Origin: Gemmatimonadaceae bacterium
GTDB taxonomy: Bacteria; Gemmatimonadota; Gemmatimonadetes; Gemmatimonadales; Gemmatimonadaceae
Reading direction: 5' to 3'
DNA: 6,608 bases
Assembly: GCA_025451425.1 (NCBI GenBank)
Contig: JANWKK010000266.1
Location: 1-6,608 of the forward strand
Shown one piece after another: positions 1 to 2,795 of the stretch; the stretch's first letter is position 1, and every line of letters starts with the position of its first letter. Made by a program: the position numbers and the translations under genes. The notes beneath the pieces were generated by a model. The model was not told the DNA's origin. It made no database searches and saw only the letters and a list, made by a program, of their open reading frames with translations.

Positions 1-1901
1 CCACTTTGAACGAAATCAGCGAGCGCCCGCGCGCCTTCCTCGCCGAGTCCACCACGCAGCGAATCGGGGTAGTTGCCCCCGAGCCCGCGGGCAATCGCGT
101 TAGGCGATTGATCGGGAATGACGATGACGTCGAAGCGATCAGCGAGCTTGCCGGCGCGAACGTCGCGGTCGACAATCGATGTGTAGGGCACGTGATAGGT
201 GTCGAACGCGTAACGCGTCCAGCCCTCGTCCATCGACGCGTTGTAGTTGCGATACAATCCAATCCGTCGCCGGCTGCCCGTTAGGCCGGCAGCACTGTAC
301 GCCGATTCTTTTACCGGCGCGATCGGAGCGCCCGCGGCCGGAACCGCTTCACGCACTTCGGCGACGTCGACGCCGAACAAGAGCGGTAGCGTATGCGCCG
401 TTACGTCGTACGGCCGCTTCGGAGGGCCGTTCGGATACTCGCGAAGATCGGGATAGTGCTGGCGCTCGAGCAGTGCTTTCGCGAAGCCACCATACGGTTG
501 ACGCGTGAGCACGACGTAGCTGCCGGCTGGATACGTTGCACCAGCGGTCGTGATCGGCGCCGTCGCTTCGCGAACCTCGACCTGACCGCGCTGGAGTGTG
601 CTCAGCAGGCGCCGCAGCGCGCTCTCGTCAGGCTGCATCTTGGGAATCACGAACGCGGTGGGCCACGCGTCGCGTCCCCATGCCGGCGACTTCGATTGAT
701 CAGCGAGTGCGCGCTCGCCGAGGTTCGCGTAACTCTCGAGCCAGGCGCGCCGATCGCGCGCCGCCTGACTGAGCATCGCCCAGGTAGCGTGGACCTGATA
801 ATGGACGATGTCGCCGTAGCGCCAGGTGCCGCCGGTCCAGAGCGCAGGATAGTTCCATGTCGACTCTCGCGCGTCGTAGCCGCGCCCGGGCCCGAGTTGC
901 TCGAAGTCGAGCTCGAGGGGCGTTGCAAGCCGCGCGCTCGCGGTTTCCGTGAGAATGCGGACACCGCGATGATACAGCGAATACTGTCGCGCCGGAGACC
1001 ATTCGTCGTACGACGCATTCGTCGCGACGCCGCTGAAATTGTCAGCGATCATGCGCCAACTCATGGCCATCCCTAACGCGTTGGTTCCCGCCGTAAGAAT
1101 CGGATCAATATTTGGCTCGACAGGGTCCATATAAGGAGGAATGAAGATCCTTCCTGCATTGGACCCTTGCTGATGGATGTCGTTGACGATCTCGGGGTCC
1201 CACGGCGTATACAGCGAGTCGACGGTGTATTGCGTCTCGACCTGTGTGAACGCGTACCAATCACGATTGTTGTCGTGACCCGTGTAGTGGTGATAGAGCT
1301 CGGGTGGCGAAGTGCCTTCGGCGCGCGTGCCTAACGTCGAGCGATACCAATCACCCACGATATCCACGCCATCCGGATTCTGCGACGGAACGAGCATGAT
1401 GATCGTGTTGGCGAGAATCGACTTTGCCTCTGGCGTCTCGGCGCGCGCGAGCTGGTCAGCGAGAACGAGCGGCGTCGTGAACCCGCCGACCTCGGTGGAG
1501 TGAATGCTCGACGTGATGAGGATGATGTTCTTCCCTTCGGCGAGTAGCTGTTCCCGTTCGCCCGGCGCCTGGAGCCGCGGATCCATGAGCTTCCGCTGGA
1601 TCTGGCGATAATGCTCGAGGTTCCGGAGCGTCGCCGAATCGCTGATGAACGCGACGATGAATGGCCGCCCGAGGGTCGTTTTGCCTAACGTACGGACGGA
1701 GACGCGGGGGCTCGCCTTGTCGAGGGCGAAGAAATAGTCGGTGACCTGTTTCCAGCTCGGCAGATGCCGATCGGCGCCGGGCTCGAAGCCGAGGATGGAA
1801 GCGGGCGTTGGAATCGCGGGATCGTGCGAGGAGCCTTGCGGGCGCTGGCCGAGGAGCGGGGAGGCGAGCAGAGTTACGAGCAAGGGAGCAAAACGGCGCA
1901 T
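1..1901 (-). CDS. Exported M14-family zinc metallopeptidase (carboxypeptidase-like), C-terminus cut by window edge
   Basis: An open frame runs on the minus strand from ATG at 1901 to the left edge with no stop, giving 633 visible residues. Residues 1-19 (MRRFAPLLVTLLASPLLGQ) look like a signal peptide, so the protein should act outside the cytoplasm. The M14 core is readable: zinc-binding HxxE at H134-S-T-E137; NPDG at 175-178; N211-N-R-D-W215, matching the Asn-Arg substrate-carboxylate pair; H243 in DIHQQG as likely third zinc ligand; and E319 in ILTETAS as candidate catalytic glutamate. The family hydrolyses C-terminal peptide bonds in a zinc-dependent way; the actual substrate is unknown. 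Residues 330-633 follow the catalytic domain, as in the long secreted M14 proteins of Gemmatimonadota, Acidobacteriota and Bacteroidota. The start is chosen for the signal peptide and the GGAG just upstream. The repeat element and hairpin behind it suggest its own promoter. Family assignment is firm; specificity is not. Confidence 0.9.
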   Translation of the reverse strand, partial: MRRFAPLLVTLLASPLLGQRPQGSSHDPAIPTPASILGFEPGADRHLPSWKQVTDYFFALDKASPRVSVRTLGKTTLGRPFIVAFISDSATLRNLEHYRQIQRKLMDPRLQAPGEREQLLAEGKNIILITSSIHSTEVGGFTTPLVLADQLARAETPEAKSILANTIIMLVPSQNPDGVDIVGDWYRSTLGTRAEGTSPPELYHHYTGHDNNRDWYAFTQVETQYTVDSLYTPWDPEIVNDIHQQGSNAGRIFIPPYMDPVEPNIDPILTAGTNALGMAMSWRMIADNFSGVATNASYDEWSPARQYSLYHRGVRILTETASARLATPLELDFEQLGPGRGYDARESTWNYPALWTGGTWRYGDIVHYQVHATWAMLSQAARDRRAWLESYANLGERALADQSKSPAWGRDAWPTAFVIPKMQPDESALRRLLSTLQRGQVEVREATAPITTAGATYPAGSYVVLTRQPYGGFAKALLERQHYPDLREYPNGPPKRPYDVTAHTLPLLFGVDVAEVREAVPAAGAPIAPVKESAYSAAGLTGSRRRIGLYRNYNASMDEGWTRYAFDTYHVPYTSIVDRDVRAGKLADRFDVIVIPDQSPNAIARGLGGNYPDSLRGGLGEEGARALADFVQS

Positions 1902-1975: not shown

Positions 1976-2045
1976 GCGGATCTAGAAGAGCGGCTCTAGA
2001 CAGGCGGCTCTAGAAGAGCGGTTCTAGAGAGACGGATCTAAAAGA
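1976..2045 (+). repeat. Left arm: five tandem 14-bp units
   Basis: The units are gcggatctagaaga, gcggctctagacag, gcggctctagaaga, gcggttctagagag and acggatctaaaaga, with no spacers. Four contain the palindrome TCTAGA; the fifth has TCTAAA. A degenerate sixth unit may follow at 2046-2062, where CGG is followed by ACTAAGGAAA with extra bases between. Confidence 0.92.
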
Positions 2046-2063
2046 CCGGGCGACTAAGGAAAC

Positions 2064-2086
2064 CGGGCGCGCCGCCGGCGCGCCCG
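2064..2086 (-). terminator. GC-rich hairpin, probable intrinsic terminator of the lipoprotein gene
   Basis: A perfect 10-bp stem CGGGCGCGCC closes a three-base loop (GCC on the plus strand). Reading leftward from the lipoprotein stop at 2193, the stem is followed by GTTTCCTT, a modest U-rich run. This fits termination of the minus-strand transcript before the peptidase gene. The plus-strand side (ATTCAGATTT) is a poorer tail. The hairpin sits exactly at the centre of the inverted 14-bp array, so it may instead be the apex of one larger structure. Confidence 0.6.
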
Positions 2087-2104
2087 ATTCAGATTTCGCC
2101 ACGA

Positions 2105-2174
2105 TCTCTTAGATCCGCCCTTTTAGACCCGTCTTTCTAGACCCGCCCTTCTAGAGCCGCTTCCTTAGAGCCGC
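2105..2174 (-). repeat. Right arm: five tandem 14-bp units, inverted
   Basis: Read on the minus strand from 2174 leftward the units are gcggctctaaggaa, gcggctctagaagg, gcgggtctagaaag, acgggtctaaaagg and gcggatctaagaga, contiguous and without spacers. They match the left-arm consensus in the opposite orientation. The arm begins 18 bases past the lipoprotein stop codon, so it would lie in that gene's 3' untranslated RNA. Confidence 0.92.
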
Positions 2175-2192: not shown

Positions 2193-2795
2193 TTATCGAA
2201 CGGAAGGAACCCCCTTCGTGATTTGCTGCAGGTGCTCTAGATCCGCCTGATGATGACGGAGGAACTCAGCGTTCGCGCGCCCAGCTGGCGTCGGAGGTGC
2301 CGACTTCGGGTTATTCATGAAACGCTCGGCCATCGCCGTCAGGATGCCGAGGCGGTAGTAATCCTTCACCGTGAGACCGGAGCTCGTGATCGCAGCGGAC
2401 ACCTTGGGATCGGACTCGAGCCACTTCTGGCCAGCATCGTCCGTCTTCGCGCCAACGATTTGCTCGTCGAGGTGCTGACGCACCTGCGGGTCGCGCGCGC
2501 GGAGCGCGGCAACGGTATCCGCGGCCTTGAGAAACTTCGCCCAGTCGTCGTCGGTGAGCTTCAGATCGAACGATCGATTGACGTTATGCTCATCGGTCGT
2601 CGTCACTTGAATGCCAGGCCCGATGGCAGCGGTCGTCGCGCTGATCGCGCCGTTCGAAGAATCGCTCGCGGGCACGGCAGGCAGGCGGCCCGCGGTGTCG
2701 CTCGCAACGCTGTCGCTTGGGCGATTGTGACTCCGCCCACAAGCTACGCACAATGTCGCCGCCGTCATCGCGGCCATGAACACGTTCATGCGCAT
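2193..2795 (-). CDS. Putative lipoprotein of unknown family, 200 residues
   Basis: Starts at ATG 2795 and stops at TAA 2195-2193. Residues 1-18 form a short hydrophobic leader with Arg2, ending LCVAC with Cys19 as candidate lipidation site. The lipobox is imperfect (Cys rather than Leu at -3), but Gly at +2 would allow outer-membrane sorting. Residues 20-70 are a Ser/Thr/Ala-rich linker. Residues 75-200 are charged and mostly helical in character, containing LTDDDWAKFLKAADTVAALR and a C-terminal segment rich in His, Gln and Leu. I do not recognise the family and see no catalytic motif. The frame stays open upstream to 3095, but that part runs into the divergent gene and lacks a leader, so the short start is preferred; ATG 2789 is an alternative. 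A weak GAGA lies at 2802-2805. It is divergent from the Asp-box gene and isolated from the peptidase gene by the repeat element. Confidence 0.8.
   Translation of the reverse strand: MRMNVFMAAMTAATLCVACGRSHNRPSDSVASDTAGRLPAVPASDSSNGAISATTAAIGPGIQVTTTDEHNVNRSFDLKLTDDDWAKFLKAADTVAALRARDPQVRQHLDEQIVGAKTDDAGQKWLESDPKVSAAITSSGLTVKDYYRLGILTAMAERFMNNPKSAPPTPAGRANAEFLRHHQADLEHLQQITKGVPSVR
2233..2246 (-). repeat. Unit-like copy of the 14-bp repeat inside the lipoprotein gene
   Basis: On the minus strand 2246-2233 reads gcggatctagagca. It contains the invariant CGGNTCTA core and matches the left-arm unit at 1976 at 12 of 14 positions. It encodes Ala184-Asp-Leu-Glu-His188 of the lipoprotein, using a CTA leucine codon. 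It has the same orientation as the right-arm units, but is not in their 14-bp register. Confidence 0.6.

Follow-up and report, generated by a model that had tools for sequence, protein, structure and literature searches.

The window, that is the whole stretch of 6,608 nucleotides analysed here, contains two minus-strand genes, one for an M14 carboxypeptidase and one lipoprotein-like with no Pfam match, and two plus-strand genes, one of the Sortilin/BNR type and one of the GFO/IDH/MocA type. The M14 gene (3..1901, minus strand) is incomplete in the window and the lipoprotein-like gene extends over 2193..2765 on the same strand, the starts of both having been picked by eye. A mirrored repeat array lies between the stop codon of the lipoprotein gene (2193) and the start of the downstream M14 gene (about 1901). 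Repeat analysis and sequence reading define a left arm (1976..2045, plus strand) of five tandem 14-bp units RCGGNTCTARRRRR, starting at 1976, 1990, 2004, 2018 and 2032, and a right arm (2105..2174, minus strand) of five inverted 14-bp units, starting at 2105, 2119, 2133, 2147 and 2161. Between them folding and reading locate a GC hairpin with a 10-bp stem and a 3-nt loop (2064..2086, assigned to neither strand). The core motif GCGCCCGNTTTCCTTA, an exact match at 2055..2070 on the minus strand, comprises the 3′ side of the hairpin stem and a T-rich tail on the strand of the lipoprotein gene, which lies upstream of it; GTTTCCTTA directly follows the core stem on this strand. The units are gapless and the consensus fits all ten of them, the sole exception being a C within the tail of the second left unit. 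A lone unit in right-arm orientation, detected by reading, is located within the 3′ part of the lipoprotein coding sequence (2233..2246, minus strand). Gapless units without spacers, present in both orientations, rule out a CRISPR array.

The initial annotation described five units, a GC hairpin and five inverted units with boundaries symmetric about position 2075, an anatomy confirmed here, and considered the mirror to be base-exact, which holds for the boundaries and not for the bases. In the mirror register, Watson-Crick pairs form at 53 of 70 arm positions (59 of 70 when G-T pairs are counted). Permuting the order of the right units gives a mean of 52.4 pairs, with 62 of 120 orders reaching 53, thus ruling out a base-by-base mirror copy, and moving the register along by one unit improves the pairing (47 of 56 positions). 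The symmetry is one of boundaries and unit consensus, and what the arms have in common is their repeat unit, not a mirrored order of bases. TRF scores the two arms as period-28 arrays (106 and 87). A 7-bp shift pairs 9/63 and 11/63 positions in the arms; the unit is of 14 bp and not of 7. The mirror-array detector described below picks up the window array and reports none when the window is subjected to one 3-mer shuffle. Folding of both strands, as the initial annotation had advised, yields for the RNA of 1960-2190 free energies of −131.9 kcal/mol (plus strand, z of −10.66) and −146 kcal/mol (minus strand, z of −10.84), with none of 200 shuffles folding as well; with DNA parameters the array folds at a z of −9.39. 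One arm together with the core folds at z of −2.38 and −3.02, and lone arms at −0.84 and −0.82, compared with about −10.7 when both arms are present. The strong fold thus requires both arms in one molecule, either a read-through RNA or DNA, so that the arms, if useful, would act behind the core.

No GGG, as in quadruplex-type G-tracts, occurs inside any left-arm unit, the GTAG tag is absent from both strands of 1976-2174, and Rfam 15 gives no match at gathering score in the window or in 16 related loci. As a separate observation, the hexamer CCTAAC/GTTAGG occurs in the window at 98, 279, 1072, 1330, 1684, 3751, 4935, 5628 and 6492. It is common relative to the rare CCTAAG in 500 kb of genome G003 (469 vs 14), in G002 (215 vs 4), in 400 kb of G073 (348 vs 1), in the window (9 vs 0) and in locus L020 (11 vs 0), compared with 4 vs 3 in G118 and 26 vs 2 in loci L001-L019. 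The heptamer CCTAACG is no outlier beyond its hexamers. Judged from these counts, CCTAAC/GTTAGG is a lineage-restricted DNA motif.

The nearest genus was sampled as three genomes, G001-G003, and the nearest M14 locus (L020, 87% identity over its part) belongs to G001. Two same-strand CGGNTCTAR words within 30 bp were found in none of 80 loci reached via the M14 protein. A dimer of the window unit was located at four places in G003, the sole positive among 179 family genomes, with none in controls; a small mirror array carrying the window-type unit lies at G003:C41:25776-25846, and at G003:C52:5466 two tandem units directly follow a stop codon, the second of them opposed to a half unit and succeeded by CTTTT. 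Downstream of relA on contig C5 of G003, DNA comparison revealed 14-bp units of different sequence, after which come a GC hairpin and TTTCCTTA. From reading G003 loci the core GCGCCCGNTTTCCTTA was derived, and a search allowing up to one mismatch returned 17 matches in G001-G003 (5, 7 and 5, respectively) and none for the reversed control. Two other patterns were set aside: a two-mismatch pattern, where control counts above the matches indicate mostly chance, and a hairpin-pair pattern, which matched solely the known C41 place with higher control counts. The core stem is conserved as sequence, since compensatory change was seen in none of its 7 pairs.

On reading, 14 of the 17 core matches proved to be flanked, on one side or both, by tandem units of 14 or 18 bp. 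These units are GCGCGTCGARRRRN-like in G003, GAGCGCGCCGGGAA-like in G002 and GAGCGAGCCGARAA-like in G001, the last genome displaying also an 18-bp unit, TGCGGATACCGCGTGAAG. Matching 14-bp arms were observed at one of the seven G002 cores (L138); cores L126, L135 and L140 have a 14-bp left arm and a heptad right flank, and L129, L132 and L141 have no left arm. At six of the seven G002 places (L126, L129, L132, L135, L140 and L141) a heptad flank starting CCCTGATAACTATGGACT follows the core, whatever stands on the left. One-armed loci were also encountered in G003 (L207, L209 and L216; three further loci inspected). Loci L127, L128 and L130 reach the contig end. The units are private to their genome: G003 contains 206 copies (77 + 129) of the dimer CGCGTCGARRRNNNCGCGTCGARRR, which is absent from the other 178 family genomes and from controls. 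Upstream of the M14 orthologue of G003 (91% identity) just a right arm that seems decayed was recognised by eye, the opposite side of this site being rearranged.

Mirrored arrays were counted at the strict setting of a detector that looks for inverted arms comprising several registers; an earlier detector based on exact 8-mers misses the window array, and a relaxed setting reports more arrays, yet also three in shuffled G073. The strict detector found 9 arrays in 500 kb of long contigs of G003, 30 in 399 kb of G003 picked mostly for known matches, 11 in 315 kb of G002, 66 in 480 kb of G073 (one of them counted twice, as two of the stretches share sequence), 4 in 367 kb of G118, none in 104 kb of G012 and 25 in the 1.23 Mb of the 80 M14 loci. 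Shuffled sequence gave one array in G073 and none elsewhere; some of the arrays counted resemble coding DNA and may be false. Of the five family genomes sampled, four thus contain mirrored arrays, their density ranging from about 11 to 138 per Mb. Their recurrence in relatives rules out a one-off local duplication, the outcome that would have spoken against the initial annotation, and supports its suggestion of a non-autonomous repeat family, the same architecture being found in related genomes. Periods of 7 and 14 dominate G002 and G003, with 8, 9, 15, 17, 18 and others also represented. The G073 samples (L198-L201 and L226-L245) are very dense in mirrored arrays of many periods, including 15-bp-unit arrays with 14 and 29 registers at L231:4283 and L244:15977, respectively.

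The strand heading to the array centre has more G than C in 49 of 51 arrays of the window, G002 and G003 and in 78 of 95 arrays of G073, G118 and the 80 loci. When arrays are grouped by shared words, a clustering that chains unlike units, the proportions are 9/10, 2/5, 2/3 and 14/19; polarity is weaker by unit cluster and is thus a tendency. A central stem of at least 7 bp was observed in 9/51 arrays vs 17/255 random places, and in 12/70 arrays of G073 and G118 vs 43/350 random places. These counts indicate that the core marks one class of arrays and not all of them.

Cores were placed relative to genes using gene calls supplemented by sequence reading. A gene 3′ end, of a same-strand or a converging gene, lies within about 260 bp of 15 of 18 cores, the core of the window included; two cores (L126 and L131) are flanked by divergent genes and L128 is not placeable. 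With its 10-bp GC stem the core displays the GC-rich hairpin of an intrinsic terminator. The terminator proposed by the initial annotation thus agrees with the position of the cores, whereas a T-run scan requiring 5 T in 8 bases does not call the window core, whose T-tract is weak. By reading, the 3′ end of relA carries a 14-bp array with the core in G003, a mirrored heptad array in G002 and a plain hairpin in G001. In G003 a PAP2-like gene ends in a core with arrays, as does its best match in G001 (53% identity), a likely orthologue, the units of the two being unlike. For the core class, the gene-end position, the conservation of a terminator-like core and its interchange with a plain hairpin at the relA 3′ end suggest a putative role in ending transcription. 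That the heptad arrays are terminators is unsupported, because arrays are not depleted between divergent genes: such gaps hold 8 of 23 placed arrays of G002 and G003, mostly heptad, vs 63 of 257 background gaps, these orientation counts being rough since the ORF caller overlooks the lipoprotein gene of the window.

A wider core family was revealed by the pattern GGGCGCN{0,24}GCGCCCGNTTTCC, which is present in 20 of 179 family genomes and in no control. There are 20 matches in G056 and 6 in G063, and some single matches outside these two genomes have no evident hairpin. Examination of 20 of the 26 G056/G063 matches (L302-L321), 18 of them aligned, revealed a conserved, sharply bounded element of ~195 bp with two hairpins and with inverted arms made of GGCAGAC-type heptads; it contains the core of the window. 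The relaxed detector flags 5 of the 20 copies. In G056 and G063 both the interior and the arms are common to the copies, whereas in the genus of the window the core is common and the arms differ.

The array of the window is best explained, with confidence about evenly balanced, as a dispersed, lineage-specific gene-end stem-loop in which tandem-unit arms face each other around a conserved terminator-like GC hairpin. Such an element is probably a two-way transcription stop with arms made of fast-turning-over repeats, its stop activity being putative. Speaking for this reading are the recurrence of the core in the genus, its usual flanks of 14- or 18-bp units, its closeness to gene 3′ ends, the exchange of forms after relA, the fold that needs both arms and the genome-private units; the weak T-tract, the cores between divergent genes, the scarcity of matching arms in G002, the one-armed arrays of G003, the lack of compensatory change in the core stem, the absent depletion between divergent genes and the small share of arrays with a central stem speak against it. 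The hairpin would stop transcription coming out of the lipoprotein gene and, more tentatively, might also stop transcription arriving from the opposite side. Were transcription to stop at the core, the two arms would never be in one RNA; read-through transcripts that reach the second arm would form a very stable long stem, which could block further read-through or protect the RNA end. The arms would lengthen and shorten by slippage, and recombination could maintain uniformity within a genome, processes that would allow the unit to change between species while the plan stays.

The ~195-bp element of G056 and G063 favours a dispersed element in general and is the main support for a different, rather unlikely account, in which the array is MITE-like or REPIN-like, its arms being terminal inverted repeats and the hairpin its interior, and spreads without serving the host. 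The same core is there enclosed, with inverted heptad arms and a second hairpin, by sharp edges, and the many copies that G003 has of its unit would also fit; unit number, however, varies freely and arms can be missing, one of the 20 examined G056/G063 copies (L320) is without its right half, and the single place after relA holds different forms across genomes. Doubtful, too, is a neutral origin, whereby slippage and hairpin-templated copying extend gene-end hairpins into mirrored arrays with functionless arms. The local likeness of neighbouring units within arms, the occurrence of one-armed arrays and the seemingly decayed right arm, seen by eye, at the orthologous G003 site are as expected from such a process, which would not alone predict the G>C polarity (49/51 and 78/95, although weaker by unit cluster); nor was exact mirror copying seen, 62 of 120 permutations being equally good.

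The initial annotation also considered a multi-site protein-binding array, here taken as a set of DNA sites for a protein that would read the 14-bp unit. Regular, gapless units would suit such a protein, and genome-private units could track one that co-evolves. This proposal is weakened because units differ from genome to genome, which argues against a fixed sequence-specific binder, and because unrelated units coexist within one genome; together with the location of the core class near gene 3′ ends, these observations make a binding array highly improbable. The preferred reading remains the gene-end stem-loop with a putative stop at its core.

The element resembles intrinsic terminators in having, close to gene ends, a GC-rich stem that leads into a T-rich tail, and differs in its weak T-tract and in the tandem-unit arms outside the hairpin. 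Cyanobacterial STRR heptamers and the heptads of tRNA-Leu intron stems are comparable as heptad repeats, some within stems, although they belong to other lineages and have another unit. The initial annotation knew of no described element of this form, a view superseded by the facing pairs of tandem heptamers published for Xanthomonas (PMC4692102). In that report, GGGAATC-type arrays number 186 and 183 in two genomes, facing heptamer pairs that can form stem-loops and have no established function number 70 (Xcc) and 75 (Xac), and Nostoc carries the heptamer repeat GGGGA(C/T)T (Rehm et al. 2015, PMC4692102). As there described, the Xanthomonas arrays are likewise tandem, short, G-rich intergenic units in many copies and facing pairs, while the present unit is of 14 bp instead of 7, genome-private and without GGG, and a conserved terminator-like hairpin lies between the arms (PMC4692102). 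The window element is thus of the same kind as the arrays of Rehm et al. 2015, from which its 14-bp unit, its core and the restriction of the unit to one genome set it apart.

Other published repeats are less similar. BrickBuilt, a MITE of Porphyromonas gingivalis with a 23-nt minisatellite, is likewise intergenic and dispersed with gapless tandem units, but holds one array inside an element ended by small inverted repeats, whereas in the window tandem units constitute both inverted arms (PMC4596501). The TAACTGA repeats of Beggiatoaceae are tandem intergenic heptamers, although they are direct repeats mostly upstream of starts, with a single inverted case (PMC4679880). REP/REPIN palindromes are tagged by GTAG (PMC3733652). 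Triplex repeats (PMC4666352) and a hairpin survey of 118,019 genomes, whose main text does not contain the word Gemmatimonad (PMC13155455), are more distant comparisons. Among the matches listed there was no published account of such arrays in Gemmatimonadota.

Facing tandem arrays, noted in Xanthomonas without a function, thus recur in Gemmatimonadota-type genomes, where a conserved terminator-like core characterises one class and genomes share the plan but not the unit. Mirrored arrays may break assemblies, three core loci (L127, L128 and L130) running into a contig end. Two questions thereby become open to test: by what means a bacterium keeps a repeat uniform throughout its genome, and whether transcription is affected by mirrored arms at gene ends. 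A bolder proposition, for which the likelihood is low, is that each species writes its own short repeat on either side of gene-end hairpins genome-wide and replaces it wholesale while the plan persists. If true, such species-own repeats would need homogenisation in trans, by gene conversion or templated copying, and the wholesale replacement of the unit, which may involve a co-evolving reader, would be a bacterial counterpart of satellite turnover.
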